Below the pieces are notes generated by a model. That model saw only the letters and a list, made by a program, of their open reading frames with translations. It searched no databases and was not told where the DNA came from. 64,000 nucleotides of DNA. It comes from Anagrus nilaparvatae (taxonomy: Eukaryota; Arthropoda; Insecta; Hymenoptera; Mymaridae). This document shows positions 6,461 to 40,787 of this stretch, one piece after another. The stretch lies in assembly GCA_022575985.1 (NCBI GenBank), contig JAKSXM010000272.1, positions 19,402,501-19,466,500 of the forward strand, in the 5' to 3' direction. The position numbers and the translations under genes were made by a program. Numbering within the stretch: position 1 is the stretch's first letter; each line of letters begins with the position of its first letter.

Positions 6461-6464
6461 ATGT

Positions 6465-18697: not shown

Positions 18698-18792
18698 GAC
18701 TAACGACACACGGTGTTCCCAAGCGGTCACCCATCCAAGTACTAACCGCGCTCAACTTTGCTTAACTTCCGGGATCGAACGAGACCGGGTGC
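18698..18792 (-). rRNA. 5S rRNA gene, 3' part (positions 26-120), separated by a retrotransposon
   Basis: Ninety-five nucleotides identical in register to the 3' part of the complete copy at 25598-25717, including the internal control region. It ends in CGTTAGTC and a run of T on the coding strand (A-rich on plus, 18668-18697). Its 5' border is the poly(A) tail of the element at 18793-24468. The missing 5' piece is at 24469-24507, and the 14 nt GCACCCGGTCTCGT are present on both sides. As split, this gene cannot give a normal 5S rRNA. Confidence 0.95.
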
Positions 18793-19395
18793 TTTTTTTT
18801 TTTTTTTTTGAAAAACGTTTATTGAAAGCCTTTAAAATACAGGTACATAAAATTATTACAGTACTTAGATATAAATTCACAATAAACAAAGAATATTACA
18901 GTTTTAATTACTTAAAATAAAGTTTAAAGTCTGAATATAATATAATAATATATATAATGCAGAAACACATAAACATACAAAATTTCTTATTAAAAAATAT
19001 AAAAAATGAAACATTATAATAATTTTAGCTTTTTTGGTAAATATAAAATTTAAAATAATTTTATTTTTAAACATTTTGTTGTATAATTAAAATTCATCAG
19101 AAAATAGGCTAAATAAAAACTGATGATAAGCTTGCTCTTCATACTTATACGCCATAAATAAATAAAAATAGAAAAATAGATTTAAAAAATAAAATAGGCG
19201 GAGATGTTAGTATTTACAAGATTATTTACAGTATAATACAAGGGGCTTTAATGAAAAGATTATGCACGAGGAACGTGCCTATTAATTTGAAGATAGTTTT
19301 TATATAAGTTTGTTACAAATTATATAAACTTTTTTCTTTATATTATGTATACATAAAGATTTTTTTTCGAGGAGTAATATATTTGAATTATTTTT

Positions 19396-19475
19396 GTGTC
19401 ATCAAGAGAAAAAGAACGAAGAAAAAGAAACTGACCTTAAGTCAGTGTTTGCCTCTCTTCTTCTCATGAGGACAA
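19396..19475 (-). other. Hairpin just downstream of ORF2 (3' UTR)
   Basis: Coding strand: TTGTCCTCATGAGAAGAAG pairs imperfectly with CTTTTTCTCTTGATGACA, about 19 bp with a few mismatches or G-U pairs. The loop contains a smaller CTGAC-TTAAG-GTCAG hairpin. The related element at 31143-36433 has a perfect 21-bp hairpin in the same place with different sequence, which suggests a conserved structure. Confidence 0.7.
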
Positions 19476-19486
19476 CTTTATGAAAA

Positions 19487-22400
19487 TTATTCTAGCCAGA
19501 AATATTTATTTTTATTTTTCCTATGATTGTCTTTTATATCCCTGTTTGGCAAGGACATATTATAGATCCAGAGAGGATTTGGATCTTTCGAATTTAGGTG
19601 GGGCTCATAAACAAATGTTTTTTTTGTAGCTCTTTTTCTATTAATGTGGTAAATTATAGGAACGTTATTGGGATCTTGAATAAGATTTAGATTGTCAAGA
19701 TAGGGAAAAGCTTCGGGAGGGACGTAACCAGTATTACAGGTTTTTTCATAGTACATTGGGTTGGGGTAAATGACATCAGATATCATAGAATTATTTGAAA
19801 TATTGCGTATTTGGGAAAAATGATTTCTAATGAGCTTTAAAATAAAGCAATCTATTCTGTGGATATTTGCTTCATTATATAATTTTTTATTACTAATGTA
19901 ATGTTGGTATTCGGATTCCGGGGATCTAAATTTGCTCAAGCAGGCTCTAATGCATTTTCTTTCAAAAACTCTTATTTTTTCCATTAAAGATGCTGGGATA
20001 TTATACCAAATTGGACAACCGTAGGTTATTATAGGTCTAATAAATGTTTGATAGCATAGAACTTTGGTTCTACTATTAAGGAGTTTTGAGTACATAACTC
20101 TTTTTAATTTGAGAAATGCCTTTTTGGCTTTTTGAATTTGTATATTAAGGTGTGTATTGAATTGTAAACGATCATCAATATTTATTCCTAGGTATTTCAC
20201 TGCTTTTTTATGGGGGATGATTTCGCCTTCGTTTTTTTTTTCGCGAATTTGAAATGATTTTACATATTTTCTACTTAGGTTAATTTGTGATAGTGGGGTA
20301 CGAAATAGAATAGTTTCACATTTACTTGCATTTATTTTCAGTTTCCAGGAGTGGAAATAAAATTGAATTTTTTCAAAAAGGTCTTGAAGATTTTCTTGTA
20401 TTTCTTTTGCTTTAGTACCAGTTACATAGATTATCAGATCATCTGCAAATGATATTGAACGTTTTAATGCGGAAGTGTTTTGGTCGAAAAGACGTAAAAG
20501 TTCTGCTACATAGATATTAAATAAAATTGGGGAGTTAACTGTGCCTTGTTGAAGCCCATTCAAAATTTTGAATATTTTACTTGAATTATTAGTTCCATTG
20601 GTGGTAAAAAAAGTTTTATTAGATATCATATCCCATATTATTTTTACTAGGTGCTTAGGGAAACCTTTTTTTAATAGTTTATAAATTAGACCTTCGGTCC
20701 ACACAGTGTCGAAGGCTTTTTCAAGGTCAATTAAACAAGCCCCAACAAGCTGTTTTGAATTGAGTGCCCAGCAAATGTCTGAGCTTAATTTAGTGATGGC
20801 ATGTATGGTGGAGTGTTTGTGTCGAAAACCGAATTGGTTTTCGGGAATGATGTTGTTTTCGTTGCAAAATTGTGTTAATTGGTTGTTAATGATTATTTCA
20901 AAAACTTTGCTGATATTAGGTAAGAGGCTAATTGGTCTTAGATTCGAGGCAGAAGATCCATCTTTCCCTTTTTTAACAAGGGCTATTAGTTTAGCTTTTT
21001 TCCATGCCGCGGGAAAATAAATATTGTTTAGTGCGTTATTAAAAATTATTGTGTAATAGTGAATAATATTTTGTGGAAGATTTTTTAAAACAATCATTGG
21101 AATGTTATCATAAGAACTGGATTTTTTGTTATTAAGTTTTTTAAATATTAACATAAGTTGGGACTCATTAATGAAATATTTATTAAGGGGGTCGGAAGTT
21201 AAATTAGGATTATGAGAAGGATTTTTTTTTGAAAAATTGAATAGAGAATTCTTATTTAAATTGTCATTTTCCATTTCTAATTTTAATTTATTGGTTTCAG
21301 ACGTGACTAGTCTAGACAGTTGTTCTCTGCCAAGGAGATTATTTTGAGTATTTGTACCTTCAAAGTGTACGCCTATTAAATTAAGTTTGTCCGTCTCGTC
21401 GGTGATTAGATAATTTCCATCTTTGTCTGTGGGAACAGAGTTTATGTCTATGTTTGCTTTTGTTAAGAGATTTAATTTTGTGGGTGGGACTACTTGCGTA
21501 GGTATTGAAAGATTGTCTTTTGGTATGAATATTTTATTTATCATAGGAAACGTTACACTAGAGTCACTAGGGGGTATGGATTTGATTTTATCTGTCCAGT
21601 ATTTGTTAATAGATCTAGAGAATTCAATTTTTAGTTTTACTTTTGTTTCGTCTAAGAGGATTTGTAGGTCATAAATCTGTTCGTCAGTAAATTCGTTTCT
21701 CATGTCAGATTTTTTAAGTTTATTGATTTGAGTAACGAGATAACTTTTGTATTTTTGTAGTTTTTGTATTTGAATATTGATATAACATTCACAAGAGTTT
21801 TTCGGTTTTATTATTGGAATAGATTCTTCTATGGCTTGTGTTATATGAGAGTTGATTGTTTCTAGGTAAAAATCAATTTCTTTGTTTGAAATGTTTTTAT
21901 CTTTAGGTATGGGCAATATGCATTTTTTTATTAAAAATGATTGAAATTTAGGCCAATTAGCTTTTTGGTAATTATAGCGAGGTTTAACTGATTCTGAGGG
22001 AAGTTCTAAAGGATGGTCTCTAATCAAGATTTCGGTTTGTATGGCGTTGTGGTCGCTATCATAGGGTAGATTTTTTAGCCTGTTGTGCGTTGAATTATTA
22101 TTATGGACGATTCTACTGTCAGATAGACAAAGATCTAAATAAGAGTTTCCGGATGGATAAGAAGGGAATTCAGACCAAAGGAGTTTTGTTCTGTAAATTA
22201 GATCATTGTTTTCTAACCAAGAATTTAATAAAATACCTCTAGGGCTATTTTCTGAATTACTCCAGTTAGTGTGTTTAGCATTAAAATCGCCTGCAATTAT
22301 GTAGTAGTTATTAAGATCATTGAGTTTGAGATTATCGAATAATTGAGATAGATCAGGTTGAAAATTTCTGTAATTTGTACCAGTTACATATGCGGATGTT

Positions 22401-22738
22401 ATGAGTAGGTTTTCGGAGTTAGATAAGGATATTTTTATAGAGGTTGTTTCGAGTGATTGAAAGTTATGTTTTAGTATTTGGTATTTTGTGGGTTTTTTTA
22501 TAAGGATAGCTGTCCCACCCGCTTGGTGGTTATTTGGTCTGTCGTTTCTTATAAGATTATAGTCTTTAAATTCAAGTTTGTGTTGTATTGATAATTTGGT
22601 TTCACATAGTAACACTATATCTGGGTTATGTTTTTTTAAAAAGCATAATAAACTGTATCTTTTTTGATTAGATATTAAGGAATTTACATTAATGCTAATT
22701 ATTTTAATTGCTTTAGAACTAGAATTAGCCTGACTCAT
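19487..22738 (-). CDS. Retrotransposon ORF2: APE-type endonuclease and reverse transcriptase
   Basis: 1083 residues, intact. The N-terminal APE endonuclease (about residues 10-235) shows ISINVNS, CETKL (catalytic Glu), GDFNAKH near residue 150 and DSDH near 227. The RT (about 500-830) has LRPISLLPNISKVFE, QFGFRHKHST, IDLEKAFDTVW (motif A, about 674), GLQQGTVNSPILFNIY (motif B), FADDLIIY (motif C, 764-767) and VKYLGINID. A C-terminal tail rich in Lys and Asn ends in KYFWLE. No RNase H domain is visible. With the three-knuckle Gag this supports the Jockey group. The ATG lies inside the end of ORF1 in another frame, so translation probably depends on termination-reinitiation. The endonuclease is the likely cutter of the 5S target. 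Confidence 0.96.
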   Translation of the reverse strand: MSQANSSSKAIKIISINVNSLISNQKRYSLLCFLKKHNPDIVLLCETKLSIQHKLEFKDYNLIRNDRPNNHQAGGTAILIKKPTKYQILKHNFQSLETTSIKISLSNSENLLITSAYVTGTNYRNFQPDLSQLFDNLKLNDLNNYYIIAGDFNAKHTNWSNSENSPRGILLNSWLENNDLIYRTKLLWSEFPSYPSGNSYLDLCLSDSRIVHNNNSTHNRLKNLPYDSDHNAIQTEILIRDHPLELPSESVKPRYNYQKANWPKFQSFLIKKCILPIPKDKNISNKEIDFYLETINSHITQAIEESIPIIKPKNSCECYINIQIQKLQKYKSYLVTQINKLKKSDMRNEFTDEQIYDLQILLDETKVKLKIEFSRSINKYWTDKIKSIPPSDSSVTFPMINKIFIPKDNLSIPTQVVPPTKLNLLTKANIDINSVPTDKDGNYLITDETDKLNLIGVHFEGTNTQNNLLGREQLSRLVTSETNKLKLEMENDNLNKNSLFNFSKKNPSHNPNLTSDPLNKYFINESQLMLIFKKLNNKKSSSYDNIPMIVLKNLPQNIIHYYTIIFNNALNNIYFPAAWKKAKLIALVKKGKDGSSASNLRPISLLPNISKVFEIIINNQLTQFCNENNIIPENQFGFRHKHSTIHAITKLSSDICWALNSKQLVGACLIDLEKAFDTVWTEGLIYKLLKKGFPKHLVKIIWDMISNKTFFTTNGTNNSSKIFKILNGLQQGTVNSPILFNIYVAELLRLFDQNTSALKRSISFADDLIIYVTGTKAKEIQENLQDLFEKIQFYFHSWKLKINASKCETILFRTPLSQINLSRKYVKSFQIREKKNEGEIIPHKKAVKYLGINIDDRLQFNTHLNIQIQKAKKAFLKLKRVMYSKLLNSRTKVLCYQTFIRPIITYGCPIWYNIPASLMEKIRVFERKCIRACLSKFRSPESEYQHYISNKKLYNEANIHRIDCFILKLIRNHFSQIRNISNNSMISDVIYPNPMYYEKTCNTGYVPPEAFPYLDNLNLIQDPNNVPIIYHINRKRATKKTFVYEPHLNSKDPNPLWIYNMSLPNRDIKDNHRKNKNKYFWLE

Positions 22739-24242
22739 TATTTATGTCAGTAAAAGCTTGGATGAAACTATCTAATCTTTCATTAATTTTATTTATTTGT
22801 TCTTGTTGTTTTTCTATAGAGATAAGAAATTGGTTTTGAATTTTTTCGAATGATTGAAACAATTGTTGTATTGGATTGAACGTATTATTAGGCTCATTAA
22901 AAGGGTTTTCTGATAACACGAAATCGCTTTTAGGAGAAAATGAGGTGATATTTTTGCGAGGAGCTTTTAGTGTGTTTGCGTAGCTAATGTTAGGTCTAAC
23001 GAAATTATTTATATGAAATAATTTTTTGGATGTATTATTTTTATTTTCAGCAAGTTTGGATCGTAATTTCTTTTTTATTTCTAAGATTTTTGGACATCCT
23101 CTATATGAGGCGGGGTGTCCGAAAATTTTACAATTAGCGCAATAAATTTCATTTTTTTCTAGCTTTACGTCTTTAGCAAGTTTGCATTCCTTAGGACCGT
23201 GGTTATCATTACATTTTACACACCTATATGGGAGGTTACAATTAGAGGACGTGTGGCCAAAATGTTGGCAATTAAAACATTGGGTTATTTCTCGTTTTTT
23301 TAGTTTTTCCCAATGAATAATCTGGTGGTTAATACCTGTGATATCATTTAATTTTTTAGGGTCACTATCAGGGGAAATTTGTACAATATGGATCGGTAAA
23401 TTTTTTTGATTTTTTATGCTTTTTTTTGTAGAGAAAGCCGTGACTTTAATAAATTTTATATCTGGTATATTTAGACTTTTTAGTTCGTCTAGAATTTCAG
23501 TGCAGGATTGGGATTGAGATAAACCTTTTAAAAGAAAAGTTTGATTTTTTTGATCTTTTGGCGTATAAGTATAGAAGGTTGAGCTTACCGTTTTTAGTAC
23601 GTTGATGGCTACATTATAATCAGCAATATTTTTTGTGTAGACTATATGTTTTCCGCTGTTGATTCTTTTGACATGAAAATTTTCGATTGATTGATCTTTT
23701 AATATTAAAACCGTGTCTTTTGGATCTTGGTGATAAACATTTATAGGTGGTGGACGACGTGCTTTTTCTGCTTCCGCTGGTGGAGAGTTTTCCTCTTGAT
23801 TATTGAGATTTATACTTGTGTTTTTAGAGGCAATTCTTTTTGACTCGTTGAGTTCTTTTATTTTTTTTAAGGCTGGGTTCTCAAGAATTTTTTCTTGAGT
23901 TTTTAAAATTTCAAATTTGTTGCTTGTAGGTACAGTGTATTCGATTTGACTTGAATTTTGTGATGTATTTGCAGCCAAATTGGCTAGATTTCGTGAATCA
24001 GTTATCATTTCGTTTGTTTCAGGAACTTTACTAGCTTGCTGATTTTTAGATCTAGGTGTTAGATTTGGTCGTGGATTATAGTATGGAGCTTTTTTTTCCA
24101 AGTTAAGAATGGTTTTGATGTTTTTAACTTTTGACATTCTTTTGACTGAAGAAAGTTCTACGTTGTCAATTTCAATTTTTCTTTTTGATGTAGAAGGATA
24201 CTTTTCATTTTCACTATAACTTCGAGTTCTTATCTGGTACAT
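22725..24242 (-). CDS. Retrotransposon ORF1: Gag-like RNA-binding protein with three zinc knuckles
   Basis: 505 residues. An N-terminal Ser/Lys/Asn-rich region is followed by a central domain (about 155-310) containing PPPINVYHQDPKD and TYTPKDQKNQTFLLKGL. Then come three Cys/His motifs (about 322-382): CFNCQHFGHTSSNC (CX2CX4HX4C), CVKCNDNHGPKEC (CX2CX3HX4C) and CANCKIFGHPASYRGC (CX2CX4HX6C). The last motif, with YRGCP, is typical of Jockey-clade Gag proteins. A Gln/Glu-rich C-terminal helix (about 465-500) may form a coiled coil. The first ATG at 24242 follows a 226-bp leader. The role is binding and packaging the element RNA. Confidence 0.94.
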   Translation of the reverse strand: MYQIRTRSYSENEKYPSTSKRKIEIDNVELSSVKRMSKVKNIKTILNLEKKAPYYNPRPNLTPRSKNQQASKVPETNEMITDSRNLANLAANTSQNSSQIEYTVPTSNKFEILKTQEKILENPALKKIKELNESKRIASKNTSINLNNQEENSPPAEAEKARRPPPINVYHQDPKDTVLILKDQSIENFHVKRINSGKHIVYTKNIADYNVAINVLKTVSSTFYTYTPKDQKNQTFLLKGLSQSQSCTEILDELKSLNIPDIKFIKVTAFSTKKSIKNQKNLPIHIVQISPDSDPKKLNDITGINHQIIHWEKLKKREITQCFNCQHFGHTSSNCNLPYRCVKCNDNHGPKECKLAKDVKLEKNEIYCANCKIFGHPASYRGCPKILEIKKKLRSKLAENKNNTSKKLFHINNFVRPNISYANTLKAPRKNITSFSPKSDFVLSENPFNEPNNTFNPIQQLFQSFEKIQNQFLISIEKQQEQINKINERLDSFIQAFTDINNESG

Positions 24243-24433
24243 ATAAATTTATCACTTTTTGATAAGAGTTTAAAATTGAAAAAAAAGAAACTTGAGTGTG
24301 ATTATGTGAATAATCACAGTTTATAAAAAATATGATTTGAACCATTCACTTGGTTTATTTTATATATACACATTTACATTCAATAACTCTATATTTTCGG
24401 AGTTCTGTCGGAGAGACAGTTAAGAAGATGAAG

Positions 24434-24468
24434 TACGTCTTTCACCGAGGGCGGTCAAGAGACGAGTG
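24434..24468 (-). promoter_or_regulatory. Internal promoter of the retrotransposon: initiator plus DPE
   Basis: The element begins CACTC directly after the 5S target ...CGT, giving TCACTC across the junction (initiator TCAKTY, one mismatch). Taking the A at 24467 as +1, AGACGT falls at +28 to +33 (24440-24435), a perfect match to the downstream promoter element RGWYVT. Insect Jockey, F, Doc and I elements use this TATA-less arrangement. The exact spacing supports that the 5' end is complete. Confidence 0.75.
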
Positions 24469-24507
24469 ACGAGACCGGGTGCATTCAAACTGATATGGAC
24501 GTTAGAC
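24469..24507 (-). rRNA. 5S rRNA gene, 5' part (positions 1-39)
   Basis: Thirty-nine nucleotides from GTCTAACGTCC through GCACCCGGTCTCGT, identical to the complete copies. It is the 5' half of the gene whose 3' part is at 18698-18792. The last 14 nt are the target duplication. Confidence 0.95.
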
Positions 24508-24529
24508 ATTAGCTGTAAATAAGAAATGC

Positions 24530-24537
24530 TACTGACT
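24530..24537 (-). promoter_or_regulatory. 5S upstream box, -30 to -23
   Basis: AGTCAGTA ends 22 nt before the 5S start. The same octamer lies at exactly the same distance before four other 5S copies in the window. Probable upstream pol III promoter element. Confidence 0.7.
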
Positions 24538-24648
24538 TTAATTTTTGTAACCTAACATAATTGAAAAATTTTTAATTTTTTATGTTCCAATTTGCTTCTC
24601 TTAATAAGTTAATTTAATTAATGATCAGCATAACTTAGAAAAGCTTAA

Positions 24649-24860
24649 GGGGCAGTGCAGGTTAAAATTTTAAAAATTAAGGATAAATTTTCAAAGAAAA
24701 AATTCTCAGAGCAAACATACTATAAAAAGACCCAACCCCACAGTTTTGAATCTACAAAAGTCTTGGCGATGTCGCCTTTTTCTTGGATTTTCAATTTTTT
24801 GTTAACATTTTTGAAAATTAGGTTTTTTCAAAAAAGTCGGATTTTAACCTGCACTGCCCC
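24649..24860. mobile_element. 212-bp MITE with TAA target duplication
   Basis: The termini are GGGGCAGTGCAGGTTAAAAT and the exact reverse complement (20 bp). They are flanked by TAA on both sides (24646-24648 and 24861-24863). A 3-bp TWA duplication and G-rich termini fit PIF/Harbinger-type MITEs. The open frame crossing it is not a gene. Confidence 0.85.
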
Positions 24861-24863
24861 TAA

Positions 24864-25560
24864 AAACGTAATTTCGCAGTCGGCCGTCCAAATCAAATGC
24901 TCATTTTCCGTTTATGAAAAAACTGGAACGAAATTTGTCTTAAAATGGCAGCTACACGGAAAATTTGAAGACTGGTCCATATTCAACTTTTTTAAAACGG
25001 CCAAAATTTTCAATTGCCCTTTTTACCAAATTGAGAACGGATTTTTAACCCTCCTCACAAATAATAAAAATTCGTATTTATTTTTAAATTTGTTAAATTG
25101 CTTAATGATTCTAGTAGATGTAATTTTAATTATGAAGTTTCCGGAAATTATCGTCTTTAGTTTTTTTATCTTTAGTTTTTTTATCTTTATAATGTTTCTA
25201 TACGAATTACAATGTTATCACGGTTTGATGTAATAGTAAATTCATGACTTAGTTTAAGACGGGTTTAAGAAATTTTTGTTTATCTAACAAGGGCAATAAT
25301 GAGGCAATATAAAAAATAAGAATATACAAAAATTTTCTTTTGCCCTCCGGGCGTAAAACTCGTGCGTAAAGAATTTTCTGCACTCGTTCTACGCCCAGGC
25401 AAACAAAAAATATTGTAAGCACCATGGGCGAATAGACACTATAGCGTTGACACATATAACTCATGCCCGGCTTCACTGAGTATTCGTGCTAGTGCTCACG
25501 CTAGTGCTGAAACTTTTGCGCCCTTGATATTTAATATACTATTTTCTAGTTAAGTTATAA
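24864..25560. other. Spacer before a 5S gene, no gene recognised
   Basis: A GC-richer patch at about 25340-25500 contains CTCCGGGCGTAAAACTCGTG and short inverted repeats. No repeat class or coding region assigned. Confidence 0.4.
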
Positions 25561-25567
25561 AAATCAA

Positions 25568-25575
25568 AGTCAGTA
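25568..25575 (+). promoter_or_regulatory. 5S upstream box, -30 to -23
   Basis: AGTCAGTA within the longer shared stretch AAAGTCAGTACCATTT upstream of the complete 5S gene at 25598. Confidence 0.75.
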
Positions 25576-25597
25576 CCATTTTTTACTTATACCTAAT

Positions 25598-25717
25598 GTC
25601 TAACGTCCATATCAGTTTGAATGCACCCGGTCTCGTTCGATCCCGGAAGTTAAGCAAAGTTGAGCGCGGTTAGTACTTGGATGGGTGACCGCTTGGGAAC
25701 ACCGTGTGTCGTTAGTC
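25598..25717 (+). rRNA. 5S ribosomal RNA, complete copy
   Basis: 120 nt. The ends GTCTAACG and CGTTAGTC pair to form helix I, with one U-U mismatch at position 2. The internal pol III control region includes AAGTTAAGCAA and GGTTAGTACTTGGATGGG. The RNA is the small RNA of the large ribosomal subunit. It is followed directly by a T-run terminator and preceded by the conserved -30 box. It is uninterrupted and may be functional. Confidence 0.97.
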
Positions 25718-25728
25718 TTTTTTTTTTT
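25718..25728 (+). terminator. Pol III T-run terminator of the 5S gene
   Basis: Eleven T residues directly follow the mature 3' end. All other 5S 3' ends in the window have a similar T-run. Confidence 0.85.
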
Positions 25729-25979
25729 ATTTTTTTATTTTTACATTAAAATAATTAAATGAGTTTATTGAACCAACTAAAATTTAGTAATCGAAAGATT
25801 AAATTATAATTTTTTTTAATTTAAAATCTTAAACTTTTAGATTTTCTGTGCTAATAATTTACTATTTTATCTTTTATCTGCACCTGATATTTTATATTAC
25901 CCTAAATTTATTTAATAAAAAGGTTTTGTAATATACTAGTTTATTCAATGTAACTATATTTTTGGTTACAAAAAATTGT

Positions 25980-26465
25980 AATTTTGCTTTACTTTCGGCA
26001 CTTAACAAAACTATATTTCACAAATACTTCACAATCAAAATAAATTCTCAAAGATTTGTATTTAAATTAACAAAATGAATTTTTTTTCTTCAGTTTTTCC
26101 AAATGATTTTAAACTTGCATTTTTTTAAATTTTCCAGAGCAGAATTCTAATTAAAGAGGCTGCTTAAATGTATCATAATTGCTGAATTTTTTTCTAAATA
26201 AGTTAACAAGTTTATTGTATTAAAAAAAAAAATTATTTTTTAATTCTGTAATAATGTGAAATACTAATTCAATTCAAAATGCGACTTTGATTCGAGTCAA
26301 GCTTCTTATAAACTAACGCTTAATATTTTAGTAGGTCGTTACAGAATTGTATCTCTGGGCCTGTCGCCAGCGGGGGAGAGGCAGGAAACTAGAAAATAAC
26401 AGAAACATCTGTACAGGAAAATGATAAAAAACAACTACGCGGGTGTCATCGTTACATAAATTATG
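25980..26465. repeat. Left arm of a large inverted repeat between two 5S genes
   Basis: An inverted counterpart lies at 30072-30510. The best-conserved part (26280-26460 against 30072-30260) shares GGGCCTGTCGC, GCGGGGGAGA and ACAGAAACATCTGTACAGG. The outer part shares AGTGCCGAAA and ATATAGTTTTGT motifs. Arms are roughly 80% alike and about 3.6 kb apart. This may be a large decayed transposon or an inverted duplication of 5S spacer. Confidence 0.7.
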
Positions 26466-28057
26466 AAAAAATAAATGTAAAAAAAGTGTATAAACAAAAT
26501 AAGGTATATAAATTTGACCAATGAATATTAAATTAAAAAATGTATAATTATATCGTAAGCTATAAAAGCAATATAAAATATTAATGCACCTGTTGAATGT
26601 TTTGTATGAAATTTGTAGGATAGTTGTAGAAGTTCGATTGGGGGAAACATAGAGAAACTATACTAATTCATTTACATCAATATTCAATGTATTATTATAC
26701 TATTATACTATATAACTATCCAAGTACATATTATATTTTATATCGTTACTATAGTTACCTCACGTAAATTTAATTCAATATAACTAAGTACAACATGCAT
26801 ATTTATATATTAGGGTAGTTCAAACTTTGTTGAAAAGGTAAAAACTATTGCTTTTTATTGTTGTATTAACATATTTTTTATAAATCTTCCTTGTTTTAAT
26901 GGTATTTGAGTTTACTGAATTGGATACTTTGTTAATTAATGGAATATCAAATTTCGTAATCAGGTGGAGTTAATATTAATGCAATGTATTTGAAAATTTT
27001 TAAATAAATTTCCTCGATAGTTAATAGAAAAGGTTTTAAAATATTTATTCTTTCTATTTTTACAGATAACTCGAGAGATAAGTGCTTTAGATAATTCTAG
27101 GACTGTCAACCATCTAAGAAAGCTCTTGAGGCTTGTAAGACCAAAGACTCCTTGACTAAAATTTCTGATAAAACTTACATTAGCCCTCTGGGGTTACATC
27201 TTCAGAAAACAACTACGAAGGATTAAACATTCAAGTTTAGCTGTAAAATTTTAGTGGCTTAATTACAAAATGATAGTTGACATATATATATATCTTCACA
27301 ATTTCATATATATGAGCTGATTATGTATAAAATTATATCGTTTTGGAAATAATTTATTTAGTTTTTAAATAATTTTGCAATATTTGGAACTCTTGTGCAA
27401 AAAAATTTAGCGCAGCTGATGATAAACAGAAAAAATTAGAAATTACTCAGCTTCAAATTTATTATTCTTAATGCCGGGATAAACTTTAGCTCAGATGTAA
27501 ATCTTAAAATTCAGCTGCAGTCACCATATTATATTGCTTTGGTTCCTCTTCCAGCATCTCTCGAATGTTCGTTATTCGTGGTTAGCTCGCTCTACTTGAC
27601 ATATCCATTAAAAATCTAGTAGATACAAGCTCTTTTAGGCTAGAAAACACCTTTGTTTGTTGAATAAAAAGTTAACTCATAAGAGAAAACTAATAAATTT
27701 TATAATTTCAAATTTTTTAAACCACATTAATATATATTAGTACAAAACTACTGTATATATTCTGCGAATTGACATGACGCCCGCAGATATGCTTTTAATA
27801 ATATATAAAATATCACAAGCATGACTTGAACACAAGATACTTTTGTCGACAATTTATGACCAATTATACTATAATTAAGCCAATAGCATTATGCCTTTAC
27901 TATCTCTATACATCATTGTTTTCACTATTATTACGTCCTTAATTTTAATAATAATAAATTTTATTCTTTAAACTGATACATAATTCTTTTTCGTTGGCTG
28001 AGAAAATTTATTTTAAGAAAAAATATGATATATTTTATGCCAAATAGTATAATATTT
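26466..28057. other. Interior of the inverted-repeat unit, no gene recognised
   Basis: AT-rich with no coding frame above 60 residues in the open-frame list. A somewhat less AT-rich patch lies at 27070-27250. No domains recognised. Confidence 0.4.
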
Positions 28058-28620
28058 TTCTTGTCAGCGGCCAGAAATCACGTATTTCCATAAAAGTAGC
28101 CTTTTCTCGCCACTGACGAAGAAAAATCGTATATACGACCCTTGTCCATAAATAAAGAATGTTCGCCTCGGATGGTAATTTACGTGCGATTAGGGCCATT
28201 CTTTACTTTTCTAGTCACGGGATCGTAATATAATATTTCTGGTCTGTGGCCCGAAAGCACGTATTTTTCAGACGCTGCGCGCCGCGTCGCGTCGTGTTTG
28301 GCAAAGACGTGTTTTTTTGCCACAGACGCAGATAAATTTTATATGACATTTGTTCATAAATAAATAATGCCCCAAATCGCAGTTTACCATCCTCAAAAGT
28401 AATTTACGTGCGGTTCGAGCCCTTCTTTACTCTTCTGGACGTGAGCCATAAATATACTATTTCTGAACAGTGGCCACGAAAGTACAATTTCCTGCCCGCT
28501 GTCACAGAATAATCATATACAAATCTTGCCTATAAAAAAAGAATCGTAGTTAACCATGTAATTTTCGTGCGATTTGAGCCATTTTTTATTATTTTGGTCA
28601 TGGGTCTTAATTTACTATTA
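28058..28620 (+). repeat. Three tandem copies of a roughly 160-225-bp repeat
   Basis: Copies start at about 28058, 28237 and 28461. Each begins with a GTCAGTGGCCAGAAA-like segment and CACGTATTT. The first two continue through a CACTGACGAAGAAAA-like and a CTTGTCCATAAATAAAGAAT-like segment, and units end near GTGCGATTTGGGCCATTCTTTAC. The middle copy has an extra GC-rich insert (GCGCGCCGCGTCGCGTCG, about 28275-28295), striking in this AT-rich DNA. Single or partial copies are scattered at about 40690, 43793, 45460, 47520, 60232, 62690, 62975 and 63220. Confidence 0.75.
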
Positions 28621-29308
28621 ATGTGGATTTTCACAAAAAAAATTTCATTCATAATTTCATAAAAAGGTAAATAAATTTTATGTACCTTAAATATATACAT
28701 TTCTTTATAACTAAAATTTAAACTTATAATTTTTTTTAAACATGATTTTAGTTTTTAATTAAGTTCTTCATTTATATTTCTTAATTATATATAAATAATG
28801 AATTTGATAATAATTAAAAAATATTTAAATTATCTTTGAACTTGACCTCTACATTATCTAAATTATGACTTAATAATCAAATTGATAGTTATTATACAAT
28901 AAATCTTTGGAAAAAAATATATTTATTTCATTTTTATTAATAAAAACTATTTTTTTGATGACGATGCAGTTATTTAAAACTTTGATAATATATTTTTTAA
29001 ACCCTGATGATATATTTTTTGTAATTTATCTTAATAAATAATTCTATTAAATTTTTCTTCAAACCTTATAAGATTATCTTTTTTTGAGTCATACATGATG
29101 GCGATTATAGGTTTAATGACTTAAGGCAATTAATTAAAATTTATTATTTTTTCAAAGAGCTTAAATTTTAATTATTTGCTTTTTTTATAAAGAAATTCTT
29201 GTATCGTATAAAACATACAAAATTGCTTTTATTGAAAAAAATGTATCTCATTAATCTTGGGAATATTTAAAAAATTTTATAAAAATCTTAAAGTAAAGAG
29301 CTTGATGC

Positions 29309-29716
29309 CCACTCGGGGAAGTTACTCTTGTATTACGCGTATTTCAATCGTGGCTTCACTATTGGCTTAATTATTATTTTACGAAAAATTTTTAAGTAAA
29401 ACCAAAAGCATATATTTAATCGTCAGTATCTTCTTTATCTAAGTAAATATAGAATTTCAAGTCATTTTAAAAATTAGTTTTTGAGAAAATTCATTTTTTT
29501 TTCGATTTTTTATGATGTGAATTTACTTCGGTAAATTAATTTACTCGAAAACTTATTTTCAAAATTACTTCAAATTCCATATTTAGATAAAGGAGATACT
29601 GACGATTAAAGATATGTTTTTAGTTTTACTTAAAAAATTTTTATTAATAAGTGAGCCAAAAGTGAAGCCACGATTGAAATACGCGTAATATAAGAGTAAC
29701 TTACCCGATCGGGTGG
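29309..29716. mobile_element. Palindromic MITE-like element
   Basis: The left arm starts CCACTCGGGGAAGTTACTC and the right arm is its inverted copy ending in CGATCGGGTGG. The arms are about 180 bp, with a centre of AT-rich sequence near 29490-29540. Shared blocks include TTACGCGTATTTCAATCGTG and TTAATCGTCAGTATCT. No clear target duplication and no coding capacity. Confidence 0.72.
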
Positions 29717-30071
29717 TTTACCAGAAATTTTTCTAAACTTTTTCTAAATTCTTAAATATTACTATTCAAAGACTGCCAAAAGAAGAATTAAAAGAAAAAC
29801 TAGTAAATCTTGCATTGAATGTCAAAAATTAATTTAGCATGTGCGCATTATGGCTACAAATTGTAACTATCAGATGCAGAATCTGTGAGAAATAATAAGT
29901 CTAATTTAATATTAATAATAAGTTTAATTTAATCTTATTTTGTGTTAAAACTGAATAAACGTTTTTACATTACTCATAATTATGAATTCAATTTTACGAA
30001 TGGAATTATTGTTAAATTTTTTTTACATTTTATATTAAAATCCAGATTGTGAGTACTTAAGAGAGTCGTGT

Positions 30072-30510
30072 GTTTTATGTAATGATGGCACCCACCTAGC
30101 TGTTTTTTATGATTTTCCTGTACAGATGTTTCTGTTACTAGTTTCCTGCTTCTCCCCCGCGTGCGACAGGCCCATAGGAATACTATGCTAATGGCATTTT
30201 AGACGTTAATCATCAAGATGCTTGACTCGAATATAGTCGCATTTTGAATCTCATTATTATTTTATACTTTGTTCAAAATTAATTTTGTCAAACAACTTGT
30301 TTAACTTATTATGAAAATATGCAGTCACTTTAAAATAATACTGTGTCATTATTTAAAAAATTGATCTAGATTTTTTTTAAAGATTTTTATTGTGGGATAT
30401 TGGTGACATATAGTTTTGTGAAGTGCCGAAATTGAAGACGAAGTTTTGTATACAAGAAGATTAGTTAAAGTGAATTAGATTTACAAAAACTATGCATTCA
30501 AAGATTGTGA
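30072..30510. repeat. Right arm of the large inverted repeat
   Basis: Inverted partner of 25980-26465. Its outer part (about 30395-30630) is also repeated directly at 38690-38880, downstream of another 5S gene. The shared marker is ATAGTTTTGTGAAGTGCCGAAA. This ties the repeat to the 5S spacers. Confidence 0.7.
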
Positions 30511-31080
30511 TTTGTAAACTAATTTTTCTGTAAATGAATTTCCTAAAAATAGTTTGTTGAATTTGAATTTTAAAATTAAAAACTTGAGATTCAAGCAATA
30601 GAAACTTTAAGGAAGTTTCATTTTTTAACCGTTTTTCTAATCATAGGTGCTTGATGTATAGGAGAATAATCTTTTTTATATTTAAACAATTTATTGCTAG
30701 CTCAAAAATCAAGTTTTTTATTTAATAATAGAAAAATTGTATAGTTTTCATAGTGAATAATTATTATACAAAATAAACTTTTTTCAATCCCAGTTAAAAT
30801 TTTCTATTTACATTTTTTATATCCAATAAGCCTGAAATAATTTACTGTGATAGAAGACCTGGCATTTCGCATGTTTAACTCTAAATTAACGGTCTTGTTA
30901 GAAAAGTAAACAATTGTCAAAACGACTTACGATTTTACTACTTTAACATTTCTTATAACAGTTAATATTATAAAAAATAGAGAAAAAGATATTTCATGGC
31001 GAGTTTCATAGTAAATTATAACTGAGTTAATTATTTATATAATAATTATTTACCATTCAAACTAAAATGTAAAAAAATCA
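30511..31080. other. 5S spacer sequence, no gene
   Basis: AT-rich, leading up to the -30 box of the interrupted 5S copy at 31112. The beginning shares CTGTAAATGAATTTCCT and following sequence with 38790-38880. Confidence 0.5.
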
Positions 31081-31081
31081 A

Positions 31082-31089
31082 AGTCAGTA
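31082..31089 (+). promoter_or_regulatory. 5S upstream box, -30 to -23
   Basis: AGTCAGTA at the standard distance before the interrupted 5S copy starting at 31112. Confidence 0.7.
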
Positions 31090-31111
31090 CCATTTCTTAC
31101 TTGTACATAAT

Positions 31112-31142
31112 GTCTAACGTCCATATCAGTTTGAATGCACCC
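31112..31142 (+). rRNA. 5S rRNA gene, 5' part (positions 1-31), interrupted
   Basis: The first 31 nt of 5S, through GCACCC, then a sharp change to retrotransposon sequence. The 3' part is at 36434-36528. GCACCC is the only target sequence present at both ends, a 6-bp apparent duplication. Confidence 0.93.
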
Positions 31143-32478
31143 TCGTCCAAACGTACAGGTAAATAGACCATTTAAACCAATAGAAAAACCAATGCTTACC
31201 GATCCACCAAATATGACACCAACTGACGAGCAAAATATATACAACGTTAAAACAAGTAACAAATTTGAAATACTTAAAACGCAAGAGCAAATTTTGGAGA
31301 ACCCAGCAATAAAAAAAATTAAAGAAATTAATGAAGCGAAGCGCAACTCCTCCAAAGAAACTAGTGCAATATCAATCAATAATAAAGATGCAAGAAATAA
31401 CTCAAGTGAAAATTCTACTACTTCGGAATCTCAAAAGGAACCACGACCTCCGCCAATAAATGTCTATCACCAAGACCCAAAAGATACTGTGACGATCCTG
31501 AAAGAAGAAAATATGAAAGACTTTAATATTAATCTTGTTAACAGTGGAAAACATATAATTTATACCAAAACCATCTCAGACTACAATAAGGCTCTTAGTT
31601 TGCTGAAAATGGTAAGCTCAAATTTTTATACTTATACGCCTAAAAGTCAAAAAAATCAAACTTTTCTTTTAAAAGGCTTAAGCCAAAATAACTCCTGCCC
31701 GGAAATCCTCGAAGAGTTAAATAGTCTTGAAATTCCTGACTTAAAATTTATTAAAGTATCAGGCTTTTCCACAAAAAAAAGCATAAAAAATGAAAAAATT
31801 CTCCCTATCCATATCGTACAGATATCACCCGATAGTAACCCTAACAAACTAAAAGAAATAAGATCAATTAATTACCAAAAAATCCAATGGGATAAATTAA
31901 GAAAAAGTGAAATAACCCAATGCTTTAACTGCCAACATTTTGGGCATACTTCATCAAATTGCAATCTTCCATACAGGTGCGTTAAATGCAACGTCAACCA
32001 TGGTCCCAATGAATGCAAATTAGATAAAAACGTCAAATTAGAAAAAAAAGAAATTTATTGTGCTAATTGCAAAAATTTTGGTCATCCTGCATCTTATAGG
32101 GGATGCCCAAAAATTTTAGAAATTAAAAAAAAACTACGTACAAAAATAGCGGAAAATAAAGATAATACTCATAGAAAATTACAAGTAATAAATAATTATG
32201 TTAGGCCAAACTTGAGTTATGCGAATTCCTTAAAAACCCCAACTAATTTACCAATTTCTTCTCAAAACGAAACCTTATTATTAGGAAATATCCCTAACAC
32301 TGAAAACCCAATTCAACAAATTCTTCAATCCTTCGAAAAATTTCAAGCTCAGCTTCTCTCTACCATTGAAAAGCAACAAAAACAAATTGACAACCTGAGT
32401 TTTTCTTTACAAAACACTGAAAAAAGATTAGATAACTTCTTCCATACATTTTCTTCTAATTTTGATGGAGCCGAATAA
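31135..32478 (+). CDS. Retrotransposon ORF1 (Gag), 5'-truncated, start codon from 5S rRNA gene
   Basis: 447 residues, against 505 in the full-length relative at 22725-24242. The first ATG (31135-31137) lies in 5S positions 24-26. The frame MHPRPN then crosses into element sequence matching the NPRPNL region of the full-length Gag, so about 60 N-terminal residues are lost. The rest is intact: PPPINVYHQDPKDT, TYTPKSQKNQTFLLKGL and three zinc knuckles (about 263-324) ending in YRGCP. The C-terminal Gln-rich helix is kept. Whether the fused start is used is unknown; the upstream promoter of the element is missing. Confidence 0.88.
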   Translation: MHPRPNVQVNRPFKPIEKPMLTDPPNMTPTDEQNIYNVKTSNKFEILKTQEQILENPAIKKIKEINEAKRNSSKETSAISINNKDARNNSSENSTTSESQKEPRPPPINVYHQDPKDTVTILKEENMKDFNINLVNSGKHIIYTKTISDYNKALSLLKMVSSNFYTYTPKSQKNQTFLLKGLSQNNSCPEILEELNSLEIPDLKFIKVSGFSTKKSIKNEKILPIHIVQISPDSNPNKLKEIRSINYQKIQWDKLRKSEITQCFNCQHFGHTSSNCNLPYRCVKCNVNHGPNECKLDKNVKLEKKEIYCANCKNFGHPASYRGCPKILEIKKKLRTKIAENKDNTHRKLQVINNYVRPNLSYANSLKTPTNLPISSQNETLLLGNIPNTENPIQQILQSFEKFQAQLLSTIEKQQKQIDNLSFSLQNTEKRLDNFFHTFSSNFDGAE

Positions 32479-35400
32479 TTCTAATTCTAATTATATTAAT
32501 AGCTCATTAAAAATTATAAGTATTAACGTAAACTCGTTAGTCTCAAACCAAAAAAGGTCAAGCTTATTAAATTTTCTAATAAAACATAAGCCTGACATAG
32601 TTTTAATTTGTGAAACTAAACTAACAAATAGAAATAAAATTGAATTTAAAGATTACAACATTATTAGAAATGATAGGCCGAACTCTATACTGGGAGGAGG
32701 CACTGCAATTTTAATTAGAAAACCTATTAAATACAAAATAATAAACCTTAATCTCCGATCTCTAGAAACTACCTCTGTAAAAATTTCCCTCCCACACTCT
32801 GAAAATTTAATAGTCACCTCAGCCTACGTATCAGGGCCAAAATATAGTACATTCACACCTGATATTTCCGATCTATTTAATAAGCTTAAACTCAATGATC
32901 CCAATAACTATTACATAATTGCTGGTGACTTGAATGCTAAACACACTAATTGGAGCAACTCAGAAAATAGTCCAAGAGGTACTTTATTAAATACATGGCT
33001 TGAAAACAATGATCTTATATACCGAACAAAACTTTTATGGTCCGAAGATCCCTCCTACCCCTCAGGAGGCTCGTATATAGATCTCTTTCTTTCAGACAGT
33101 AGAATTATCCACAATAATAATTCTACATCTTGCAGATTAAAAAACCTCCCATATGACAGTGATCATACTGCTGTGCAATCCATAATTAAAATCGATAATA
33201 ATGACCTTTCAAATCTTGAATCAGAAATATTGCAGCCTAGATACAATTATCAAAAAGCCAAATGGCAAAAATTTCAAAAATACCTAAGAAAAAAATGCGT
33301 CTTATCAATTCCAGTGGATAAAAATCTTTCTAATGAGGAAATAAATTCTTATCTTGAAAGAATAAATATTAACATTTCACAAGCTATAGACGCGTCAATT
33401 CCTGTAATAAAACCAAGAAACTCTTGCGAATGCTACATAAACGACAAAATCAAAAAATTAGAAAAATATAAAAGTTTTCTCATCACTCAAATTAATAAGC
33501 TAAAACAAAGCTGCGAGAGAAATGAAATTACTGATGAACAGATTTATGACCTTCAATCTCTTTTATCCGCTACAAAAGAAAAAATAAAATTTGAATTTTC
33601 TACATCTGTAAACTCCTACTGGGAAAAAAAAATAAGATCTATACCCCCCAGCGACTCCAGCGTAACATTTCCTATGATAAACAAAATATTCTTACCCAAA
33701 GAGAATCTCTCGATTCCTACACAAAAAGTACCGCCCGCTAACATAAATCTCTTAACAAAAGCAGGCATAGATTTTAACTCTGTTTCGAAGGACGAAGACA
33801 ATAATTTTTTAATTACTGACGAAACAGATAAATTAAACTTAATAGGCGTACACTTTGCACATACAAACACACAAAACGAGCTTCTTGGTAAAGAACAGTT
33901 ATCTAGGCTTGTTTTATCCGAAACAAATAAATTAAAATGCGAAATGCAAACGGACACTCTAAATAAATATACTCTTTACAATTTTTCAAAAAATAACCCA
34001 TCAGACGACCCTAAAATTACGTCAGGTTACCTCAGTAATTACTTCATCAGTGAAACGCAACTTATGTTAATATTTAGAAATCTTAACAACAAAAAATCTA
34101 GCTCTTATGACAATATTCCAATGATAGTTTTAAAAAACCTCCCACCAAATATTATCAATTACTATACAATAATTTTCATCAATGCTCTTAATAACTGCTA
34201 TTTTCCTACAGCATGGAAAAAAGCTAAATTAATAGCTCTTGTAAAAAAAGGCAAAGACGGGTCATCTGCCTCAAATCTAAGGCCCATTAGCCTGCTTCCC
34301 AACATCAGTAAAGTGTTTGAAATAATTATCAATAATCGCATAACTCAGCATTGCAACGAAAATGATATAATCCCTGAAAGTCAATTTGGTTTTCGACATA
34401 AGCATTCAACTATTCACGCAATCACAAAACTAACCTCAGATATTTCGTGGGCTCTTAACTCAAAACAGATAATAGGAGCGTGCTTAATCGATCTTGAAAA
34501 AGCTTTTGATACCGTTTGGACAGAAGGTCTAATATATAAATTATTAAAAAAGGGTTTTCCCAAACATTTAGTTAAAATTATTTGGAACATGATTTCTAAC
34601 AAAATTTTTTATACCTCTAATGGATCCCATTCTTCAAGCAAAGAATTTAAAATCTTAAATGGCCTTCAACAAGGTACAGTTAATTCACCAATTCTATTCA
34701 ATATCTATGTCGCTGAAATATTGCGTCTTTTCGATCAAAATACTTCCCTATTTAAACGCTCAATAGCATTTGCCGACGATTTGATAATATACATTACCCA
34801 CTCTAAAGCAAAAACTATTATAGATAATCTCCAAGAACTTTTTGAAAAAATCCAATTTTATTTTCATTCTTGGAAACTAAAAATAAACGCAAGTAAGTGC
34901 GAAACAATATTATTCCGCCCCCCCTTATCTGAAATTGGAGTAAGTAGAAGATACGTCAAAAATTTTCAAATCCGTGAAAAAAAAAATGAAGGTCAAATCA
35001 TCCCTCATAAAAATACTGTCAAATACTTAGGAATTAACATCGATGACCGCCTCCTATTTAACAGACATATAGTTATTCAACTGCAAAAAGCTAAGAATGC
35101 TTTTATGAAACTAAAAAGGGTATTTTACTCAAAGTATCTAACTAAAAGAACAAAAATTTTATGCTATCAAACATTTATTCGACCCATTATAACATATGGT
35201 TGCCCAATCTGGTATAATATTTCAGCTTCTCAAATGGAAAAAATAAGGGTTTTTGAAAAGAAATGCATTAGAGCTTGCCTGGGAAAATATAGATCCCCAG
35301 AAACAGAATTCCGGCACTTTATCAGCAATAAAAAATTATACAATGAAGCAAACATTCACCGAATAGATTGCTTCATTTTAAAACTCATAAGAAATCATTT

Positions 35401-35731
35401 TAGTCAAATACACACAGTAACCGATAATTCACTAATATCAAGCATTATTTACCCAAACCCACTGTATTTTGAAAATACCTGTAAAACAGGTTACGTTCCT
35501 CCCGAAGCTTTTCCTTACTTGGATAAAAAAAATTTTATCCAAGATTCTAATAATGTCCCTATAATTTATCACATTAGTAGGAAAAACGCTACAAAAAGAA
35601 AATTTTTATATGACCCTAATCTTAACTCAAAAGATCCAAACCCCCTTTGGATCTTTAATATGTCCTTGTCTAATAAGGATAGAAAAGATAATCACAGAAA
35701 AAATAAAAATAAATATTTCTGGCTAGAATAA
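32465..35731 (+). CDS. Retrotransposon ORF2: endonuclease and reverse transcriptase
   Basis: 1088 residues counted from the ATG at 32465, which overlaps the end of ORF1 by 14 nt, exactly as in the other copy. A TTG at 32462 would only extend it by one codon. Endonuclease: ISINVNS, CETKL, GDLNAKH (about 153) and DSDH. RT: LRPISLLPNISKVFE, QFGFRHKHST, IDLEKAFDTVW, GLQQGTVNSPILFNIY, FADDLIIY (769-772), VKYLGINID. The protein ends in KYFWLE like its relative. No stop or frameshift is seen, so this protein may still work although the copy lacks its own 5' end. Confidence 0.96.
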   Translation: MEPNNSNSNYINSSLKIISINVNSLVSNQKRSSLLNFLIKHKPDIVLICETKLTNRNKIEFKDYNIIRNDRPNSILGGGTAILIRKPIKYKIINLNLRSLETTSVKISLPHSENLIVTSAYVSGPKYSTFTPDISDLFNKLKLNDPNNYYIIAGDLNAKHTNWSNSENSPRGTLLNTWLENNDLIYRTKLLWSEDPSYPSGGSYIDLFLSDSRIIHNNNSTSCRLKNLPYDSDHTAVQSIIKIDNNDLSNLESEILQPRYNYQKAKWQKFQKYLRKKCVLSIPVDKNLSNEEINSYLERININISQAIDASIPVIKPRNSCECYINDKIKKLEKYKSFLITQINKLKQSCERNEITDEQIYDLQSLLSATKEKIKFEFSTSVNSYWEKKIRSIPPSDSSVTFPMINKIFLPKENLSIPTQKVPPANINLLTKAGIDFNSVSKDEDNNFLITDETDKLNLIGVHFAHTNTQNELLGKEQLSRLVLSETNKLKCEMQTDTLNKYTLYNFSKNNPSDDPKITSGYLSNYFISETQLMLIFRNLNNKKSSSYDNIPMIVLKNLPPNIINYYTIIFINALNNCYFPTAWKKAKLIALVKKGKDGSSASNLRPISLLPNISKVFEIIINNRITQHCNENDIIPESQFGFRHKHSTIHAITKLTSDISWALNSKQIIGACLIDLEKAFDTVWTEGLIYKLLKKGFPKHLVKIIWNMISNKIFYTSNGSHSSSKEFKILNGLQQGTVNSPILFNIYVAEILRLFDQNTSLFKRSIAFADDLIIYITHSKAKTIIDNLQELFEKIQFYFHSWKLKINASKCETILFRPPLSEIGVSRRYVKNFQIREKKNEGQIIPHKNTVKYLGINIDDRLLFNRHIVIQLQKAKNAFMKLKRVFYSKYLTKRTKILCYQTFIRPIITYGCPIWYNISASQMEKIRVFEKKCIRACLGKYRSPETEFRHFISNKKLYNEANIHRIDCFILKLIRNHFSQIHTVTDNSLISSIIYPNPLYFENTCKTGYVPPEAFPYLDKKNFIQDSNNVPIIYHISRKNATKRKFLYDPNLNSKDPNPLWIFNMSLSNKDRKDNHRKNKNKYFWLE

Positions 35732-35742
35732 CATAAAAATAA

Positions 35743-35829
35743 ATTGTCGTCGCATGAAGAAGAGAGTAGGTAAATAGCGTGAGAATTATTCATATTTATC
35801 TCTGTCTCTCTTCTTCATGCGACGACATA
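35743..35829 (+). other. Perfect 21-bp hairpin in the retrotransposon 3' UTR
   Basis: GTCGTCGCATGAAGAAGAGAG (35746-35766) is exactly complementary to 35806-35826, with a 39-nt loop that has further AT pairing. It begins 15 nt after the ORF2 stop. The corresponding stem in the other copy has different bases but the same place and AGAAGAAGAGAG-like core. It could be the RNA structure recognised by the RT. Confidence 0.85.
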
Positions 35830-36433
35830 AAACAGACTTTTCTAAAAAGTAAAAAAATTTTATATTTTGTGATCATAGACACACAAGTCCCTGTGTATCT
35901 ATGTTCATAATGTAAAAGAAAAGTAATCATATGCTCATAAATTAAAAACATATGAAACCACTTGAAAAATAATATATACATCCTCCGTATATAATTCAAA
36001 ATCAAATTATTTTATTACTTCCCTTTGTACTATATTGTAAATAATTTTTGTAAATACTTTAACATCTCCGCCTATTTTTCTCTTTATTTATTTTAATCCT
36101 ATTATTTTATGGCGTATAAGTATAAAAGTGCAAGTTTATCATCAGTTTTTTTTCCAGCCTGTTTTCTGATGAATTATTATACACGAAAATGTTAAAAATA
36201 ATTATTATATTATGTTTACCAAAAAAAGAAAAAAATTGTATAATGTTTTAATTCTATATTATTTATAATAGGCAAGATTGTATGTTTATGTGATTCTGCG
36301 TAGTGAACAGACTTTAAACTTTAATCAACTGATATTGTAATATTCTTTTTGTTTATTGTGAATTATTTTCATTATTGTAATAATTTTTTTGTATTTTTCA
36401 TAGAAGGCTTCAATAAACTTTTATATAAAAAAA

Positions 36434-36528
36434 GCACCCGGTCTCGTTCGATCCCGGAAGTTAAGCAAAGTTGAGCGCGGTTAGTACTTGGATGGGTGAC
36501 CGCTTGGGAACACCGTGTGTCGTTAGTC
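36434..36528 (+). rRNA. 5S rRNA gene, 3' part (positions 26-120), interrupted
   Basis: Begins GCACCCGGTCTCG right after the retrotransposon poly(A) and runs to CGTTAGTC and a T-run. Identical to the complete copy at 25598. The internal control region is intact, but the first 25 nt are missing. Confidence 0.95.
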
Positions 36529-36828
36529 TTTTTTTTTTATTTTTATTAACCAAAATTATTAAATACAATTTATTTAGTAAAATATTATTAAAGCAATCCT
36601 TTTAGGCAGCCAGATTTTGTTTTATTTTTTAAATGCTTGCAAAAGTCACAAAACGTAAAAAACTTTCAAAAAAATTTTTGAACCAAAATAATAAATTATT
36701 TTTTATATTTTTCTTTAGGTTTTATGACATTTACAACATTATAAAAGAAAAAAAAAATATGGCTGTCACAACCGGAATTCCGTTAGCGGTAACCATATAT
36801 ATTTTTTTTTTTCAGTGTATCGAACTTA

Positions 36829-37813: not shown

Positions 37814-37816
37814 TTA

Positions 37817-38205: not shown

Positions 38206-38325
38206 GTCTAACGTCCATATCAGTTTGAATGCACCCGGTCTCGTTCGATCCCGGAAGTTAAGCAAAGTTGAGCGCGGTTAGTACTTGGATGGGTGACCGC
38301 TTGGGAACACCGTGTGTCGTTAGTC
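38206..38325 (+). rRNA. 5S ribosomal RNA, complete copy
   Basis: 120 nt, identical by eye to the copy at 25598, with the -30 box upstream and a T-run directly downstream. Uninterrupted and possibly functional. The near-identity of copies separated by diverged spacers points to homogenisation or recent duplication. Confidence 0.97.
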
Positions 38326-40294: not shown

Positions 40295-40414
40295 GACTAA
40301 CGACACACGGTGTTCCCAAGCGGTCACCCATCCAAGTACTAACCGCGCTCAACTTTGCTTAACTTCCGGGATCGAACGAGACCGGGTGCATTCAAACTGA
40401 TATGGACGTTAGAC
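40295..40414 (-). rRNA. 5S ribosomal RNA, complete copy, opposite strand
   Basis: 120 nt, same sequence as the plus-strand copies, ending in a T-run (A14 on plus, 40281-40294). The upstream region differs: only AGTCAT followed by TTTTTTCTTCATG is left, at -22, as if about 8 bp of the usual -30 box were deleted. The RNA region looks intact, but expression may be altered. Confidence 0.95.
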
Positions 40415-40763: not shown

Positions 40764-40787
40764 TTCAAACAGATATGGACGTTATAC
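40764..40787 (-). pseudogene. 5S rRNA gene fragment, positions 1-24
   Basis: GTATAACGTCCATATCTGTTTGAA, two mismatches to the first 24 nt of the complete copies (quoted here in full because it is the evidence, in two halves GTATAACGTCCA and TATCTGTTTGAA). The similarity stops within two nucleotides of the 25/26 retrotransposon cut site. What follows is unrelated repeat sequence. The -30 box is kept. Confidence 0.8.

Follow-up and report, generated by a model that had tools for sequence, protein, structure and literature searches.

A Jockey-group retrotransposon lineage that inserts predominantly at one nucleotide of the 5S rRNA gene in Anagrus nilaparvatae

Introduction

Can a non-long terminal repeat (non-LTR) retrotransposon of the Jockey group be specific for a single nucleotide of a host gene? 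The question is raised by a stretch of 64,000 nucleotides (nt) from the hymenopteran Anagrus nilaparvatae (assembly GCA_022575985.1, contig JAKSXM010000272.1, positions 19,402,501 to 19,466,500 of the forward strand), hereafter the window, in which two elements, e1 and e2, each interrupt a 5S rRNA gene. Sequence-specific targets are a feature of R1, TRAS and SART, which encode an APE endonuclease and carry CCHC motifs in the first open reading frame (ORF1) and also in ORF2. The X-element, BS and jockey of Drosophila belong to the Jockey clade and have dispersed insertions. According to the accessible part of PMC4640811, the majority of target-specific families fall in the early-branched, Tx1 and R1 groups. 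Here we present evidence that e1 and e2 represent two subfamilies of a 5S-specific Jockey-group lineage that inserts by target-primed reverse transcription, a reading to which we assign a probability of roughly 93%.

Structure of the elements and of their junctions

Reading of the junctions outlined a full-length element, e1 (18793..24468, minus strand), lying between 5S nt 1-39 on its 5′ side (24469..24507, minus) and 5S nt 26-120 on its 3′ side (18698..18792, minus). Positions are numbered from the G at 25598, the first of 120 nt, with Rfam placing the start one base later. The tail of e1 consists of 17 A ending at 18793, followed at 18792 by 5S nt 26, and its target duplication spans 5S nt 26-39 (GCACCCGGTCTCGT, 14 bp), with the 5′ copy at 24469-24482 and the 3′ copy at 18779-18792. 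The second element, e2 (31143..36433, plus strand), is 5′-truncated within ORF1 and ends in 7 A at 36433, again directly before 5S nt 26; sequence comparison places 5S nt 1-31 upstream of it (31112..31142, plus) and nt 26-120 downstream (36434..36528, plus), with a target duplication of 6 nt. Each element thus splits one 5S gene, a different one in each case, in the orientation of the gene. These readings bear out the initial annotation, which had described two elements with diverged ORFs in different 5S genes, poly(A) ends meeting at the boundary between 5S nt 25 and 26, and a 14-bp duplication around one of them.

Rfam returned five 5S matches in the window. Three scored 102.1 bits, and the weaker two (36413-36528, 67.8 bits; 18698-18816, 56.4 bits) are 3′ parts comprising nt 26-120, each directly after the poly(A) tail of a long interspersed nuclear element (LINE). 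Together with sequence comparison, the stronger matches define intact 5S genes at 25598..25717 (plus) and 38206..38325 (plus), and an intact 5S sequence at 40295..40414 (minus) that lacks the common upstream box. This box, of about 30-50 bp, is common to the units bearing e1 and e2 and to the intact units at 25598 and 38206, indicating that both elements sit in ordinary 5S units. The 5S pieces beside e1 and e2 match the three intact sequences of the window with 100% identity.

The ORF list and pattern searches revealed the same coding organization in both elements. From its first ATG, ORF1 of e1 (22725..24242, minus) contains three CCHC motifs, and ORF2, likewise taken from its first ATG (19487..22738, minus), encodes an APE endonuclease and a reverse transcriptase (RT), overlapping ORF1 by 14 nt. 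In e2, ORF1 as found (31135..32478, plus) takes its first ATG from the 5S gene, and ORF2 (32465..35731, plus), with the same two domains, also overlaps it by 14 nt. ORF1 of the truncated e2 is in frame with this 5S-derived ATG at 31135, GAATGCACCC. A search for 5S-derived peptides near the protein starts, the mark expected of copies truncated at this site in other species, found none among 261 fetched proteins, the sole MHP match (P0118) not being judged 5S-derived.

The 5′ end of e1 and that of a second full-length copy, L040, read CA(C/T)TCGTCTCT directly after the duplication. The start of e1 (24434..24468, minus) comprises an initiator-like CA and, counting the A of CA as +1, AGACG at +28 to +32, where L040 has GGACG; the chance of such a match in shuffled sequence is about 0.012 and 0.013, respectively. 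This position and consensus are those of the downstream promoter element (DPE) of Jockey-type promoters, and the motif is DPE-like. Directly after ORF2, a hairpin is predicted in both e1 (19397..19474, minus; z -3.5, 2/200 shuffles folding as well) and e2 (35745..35827, plus; z -9.1, 0/200 shuffles). Its sequence differs between the two elements while the long stem is kept, and it was found as well in L040, L035 and L044; it may perhaps represent an RNA signal.

Insertion sites across the assembly

The assembly (488,676,385 bases in 393 contigs) was searched with two 3′-terminal queries, of 321 bp from e1 and 317 bp from e2, that include neither the poly(A) tail nor any 5S sequence. The two queries matched 24 and 23 places, with a union of 25, and all copy counts are lower bounds. 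A poly(A) end was readable in 22 copies, which leaves out three of these places, namely L024, which has lost its 3′ tip, and L031 and L032, where the matches are not 3′-terminal. Twenty of the 22 copies lie in 5S genes, and 18 of those 20 join exactly at nt 26. Most copies therefore occupy one position of one target, and the outcome that the initial annotation had named as contrary to its proposal, a majority of intact 3′ ends outside 5S genes, is not what the assembly holds. The 190 5S-like candidates detected in the genome, of which 40 were scored, would amount, if all are counted at 120 bp each, to about 5e-5 of the assembly, and chance would thus place about 0.001 of 22 insertions in 5S sequence.

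The 5S 5′ half was present at the other end in 18 of the 19 copies read on both sides, and the twentieth 5S copy, L054, has 5S nt 2-21 upstream. Two 5S types differing at 12 of 120 sites were identified in the genome, with the type seen in the window concentrated on contig C317. Among 19 copies whose host type was assigned, 12 are inserted in the main type and seven in the window type. L024, left out of the count, runs into 5S nt 38-119.

Several observations weigh against strict targeting of nt 26. Two of the 22 copies, L045 (86.6%) and L050 (93.3% identical to e2), lie outside 5S genes; the join of L040 falls in a 5S variant with A at nt 25-27 and has no single placement, and L049 starts at C27. 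In addition, L043 is devoid of the 5S 5′ half, and the copy counts are minimum values. The 5′ side of L043 is a rearrangement or an assembly error; at ~1030-1070 (element strand), 22 bp that match the 5S upstream box in inverted orientation precede this almost full-length copy.

A separate observation concerns L046, where an older relative lies at 3147-6415 (element strand). It shares 84% identity with e1 across 2.5 kb and has lost its 3′ tip, but it also runs into a 5S gene, at nt 38-119, and may point to a third subfamily with this target.

The 5S gene is transcribed by RNA polymerase III (Pol III), and the element could in principle be steered by Pol III factors assembled on it instead of recognizing the DNA sequence directly. 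The setting of L045 would fit this explanation: at ~6140-6640 (element strand), this copy outside 5S lies between halves that resemble, as judged by eye, box A and box B of a tRNA gene, accompanied by a 5-bp repeat, CTCTA. No tRNA was called by ARAGORN, however, at the rejoined L045 site. Moreover, the same nucleotide recurs in 18 of the 20 5S junctions, whereas the accessible part of PMC3706591 describes TRE5-A and Tf1 as inserting near their targets and not at fixed positions inside them. Steering by Pol III factors is thus an improbable account.

Classification of the encoded proteins

The initial annotation had assigned the elements to the Jockey type on the basis of Gag knuckles, an APE endonuclease and an RT unaccompanied by RNase H, and the domain content, the RT trees and the names of ORF1 relatives all agree with it. 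Pattern searches located three CCHC motifs in ORF1 of each element, where Pfam gave no knuckle match above cut-off. ORF2 of both encodes an APE-type endonuclease and an RT, with no RNase H match in Pfam and no CCHC motif with the patterns tried. CCHC motifs in ORF1 together with an APE endonuclease and an RT, but no RNase H, in ORF2 form the architecture of the Jockey clade.

For the RT trees, 182 sequences were gathered, of which 19 were dropped as short, leaving 163 for FastTree; a hand-picked set of 79 of these was used for a tree with UFBoot support. The reference set was devoid of any RT named Tx1 or R1, and the jockey group was picked from the FastTree result. In the 79-RT tree, a 24-member lineage containing e1 and e2 (support 100) joined 18 of the 19 jockey-group members with UFBoot 100 (78 for all 19), and the RNase H-bearing and other RT groups fell outside this grouping, in agreement with the 163-RT tree. 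An inner group of 16 members that includes the window elements received a support of 78 in the former tree and 1.0 in the latter. The only jockey-group member named jockey is a spider protein, P0033. Another protein of that name, P0235, which was too short to be kept for the tree, has an RNase H domain, and source names are hence loose guides.

The closest named relatives of ORF2 come from Megalopta genalis and Mischocyttarus mexicanus, with similar ORF2 sequences on many further contigs, and one ORF1 (P0084), on another public contig, is 93% identical to ORF1 of e2. Some bee relatives of ORF1 carry the name nucleic-acid-binding protein of X-element or jockey. The likeness to the X-element, BS and jockey of Drosophila comprises these names, the two ORFs and the absence of an RNase H match. 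ORF2 measures about 1,085 amino acids in e1 and e2, compared to about 880-910 in most of the fetched jockey group. Among relatives with DNA context, none was found on viral contigs; genome contigs contributed a single remote LINE, located on a contig of a Bathymodiolus symbiont, and plasmids one weak RT match.

The AlphaFold model of ORF2 had a mean pLDDT of 81.4, and its best structural matches were L1 ORF2p chains. PDB sequence searches listed L1 endonucleases and neither TRAS1 nor R1, an omission that carries no meaning since L1, TRAS1 and R1 all matched at similar Z in the structural comparison of the endonuclease. The long conserved C-terminus of ORF2 might be the part involved in targeting, which stays a guess because a shorter form of it is present in the sister group.

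The elements might instead be members of a known APE-type clade of target-specific elements, either R1 or Tx1, and resemble Jockey in appearance only. Comparison with R1, TRAS and SART shows a similar endonuclease fold, as with L1, and different targets, which in those elements are 28S or telomeric. The ORF2 CCHC motif typical of R1 and Tx1 was not found in e1 or e2 with the patterns tried. Given also that, among the references used, the RT joins, with UFBoot 100, a set holding a protein named jockey, and that ORF1 relatives are named after X-element or jockey, we regard membership of either clade as very unlikely.

Variable 5′ ends and recent activity

In contrast to the fixed 3′ junction, the 5′ ends differ from copy to copy. 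Half of 18 copies (e1, L035, L036, L037, L039, L040, L042, L047 and L051) present duplications of 14-16 bp, a range that reflects one or two ambiguous bases and that, for L040, includes the A found at nt 26-27 in its variant of the 5S gene. Shorter duplications were identified in L038 (8 bp), in L044 and e2 (6 bp) and in L034, L052 and L053 (4 bp); L041 and L049 have none, and L048 lost 4 nt of the target. L051 has 304 bp of element sequence in inverted orientation beside a duplication of 14-15 bp, a 5′ inversion like those of LINE twin priming. The truncation points are likewise varied.

The clustering of 5S genes and several copies on contig C317 could suggest that a single old insertion was carried along passively as 5S units duplicated, its common site reflecting descent, but this explanation was rejected as highly improbable on account of the differing 5′ junctions: 16 different 5′-end labels occur among 17 copies, even the label common to the full copies L040 and L043 covers a difference (L043 is missing the first ~65 nt of L040), duplication lengths vary, and the copies occupy 11 contigs and 5S genes of two types.

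Recent insertion is documented by nearly identical copies. Over 5,284 bp, L040 and e2 are 99.87% identical, and activity has therefore been recent. A truncated copy, L034, is 99.85% identical to e1 over 1,313 bp and lies on another contig in the other 5S type. Both ORFs are open in e1 and L040. Between e1 and e2, identity is 74% across 4.5 kb, and 66% and 78% for ORF1 and ORF2, respectively. The ratio of nonsynonymous to synonymous substitution rates (dN/dS) is 0.08 for ORF1 and 0.06 for ORF2, with synonymous differences near saturation, and both elements are under purifying selection. Judged from these comparisons, e1 and e2 are two old subfamilies that use the same site.

Putative insertion mechanism

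The fixed 3′ junction, the variable 5′ ends, the duplications and the one 5′ inversion point to target-primed reverse transcription. In the mechanism that we propose, the APE-type endonuclease of ORF2 would introduce a bottom-strand nick opposite GAAT^G(C/T)ACC, and the 3′ end exposed there would serve as primer for reverse transcription, with synthesis starting at the poly(A) end of the element RNA. Cleavage of the top strand would then often follow 14 nt on, after GTCTCGT, giving rise to the duplication, and copies that stop early would be joined with a short duplication or none, which would yield variable 5′ ends and a fixed 3′ junction. We infer the two nicks and their order from the junctions, and target specificity would reside in the endonuclease. 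Priming is probably unpaired, because the presumed primer end (GGTGC or GGTAC) is unable to pair with poly(A). The internal promoter of the 5S gene lies at about nt 50-97, and since the insertion site precedes it, the 3′ 5S half keeps this promoter.

Other features of the window

At 40764-40784 (minus), an old 5S 5′ fragment with the upstream box ends at about nt 24, adjoining the target site, and may be what is left of an earlier insertion. The 5S gene of e2 and the next intact 5S have between them a ~1-kb inverted repeat (36824-37818) whose arms are 72.5% identical. The window also contains, at 7860-8927 (minus), an RT fragment of another LINE that falls outside the Jockey group in the RT trees and, at 961-1545 (minus), an open frame resembling, as judged by eye, a fragment of a trypsin-like serine protease.

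Discussion

The association of Jockey-like elements with 5S genes in insects is not wholly new. The accessible part of PMC11202950, from 2024, describes, in 5S arrays of Tribolium freemani, Jockey-like elements of about 5 kb that are mostly associated with 5S genes, some copies lying outside them, and reports that those of T. castaneum are not 5S-associated. It further states that 32 of 113 5S copies in T. freemani lack the first 30 bp, exclusively in arrays with the element, and such a loss is the product expected from insertion near nt 25-30. This likeness to e1 and e2 is one of description and not of sequence, and the T. freemani arrays differ in being satellite-rich tandem arrays, with insertion site, duplication and specificity not described in the accessible part of that source. 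A literature search of titles and abstract openings, which covered neither Repbase nor most subscription papers, returned no report of Jockey elements in 5S genes besides PMC11202950.

Outside the insects, Mutsu of zebrafish belongs to the Tx1 clade. The RT of e1 and e2 groups with the Jockey set in a tree devoid of named Tx1 references, and their 5S specificity may have arisen independently. The accessible part of PMC3706591 characterizes Mutsu, like e1 and e2, as a 5S-specific non-LTR retrotransposon with two ORFs. Dada-5S of fish also targets 5S genes but is a DNA transposon with another mechanism, as given in the accessible part of PMC8869645.

A broader proposal, which we advance tentatively and at somewhat less than even odds, is that a Jockey sub-lineage marked by a longer ORF2 became strictly 5S-specific at an early stage of insect evolution, in an origin separate from that of Mutsu, and has kept the same nucleotide as its target in Hymenoptera and beetles. 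If so, the short 5S pseudogenes of T. freemani would correspond to the 3′ halves left by such insertions, and strict RNA-gene specificity would extend to a third APE-type clade, Jockey, beside R1 and Tx1.

The two host 5S types provide a natural series of tolerated target sequences, and because relatives of the elements have dispersed insertions, the protein change that created specificity can be sought among close kin. Targeting of 5S also offers an explanation for the 5′-deleted 5S pseudogenes reported in a beetle. A Jockey lineage hitting one 5S nucleotide would constitute a further origin of precise RNA-gene targeting.

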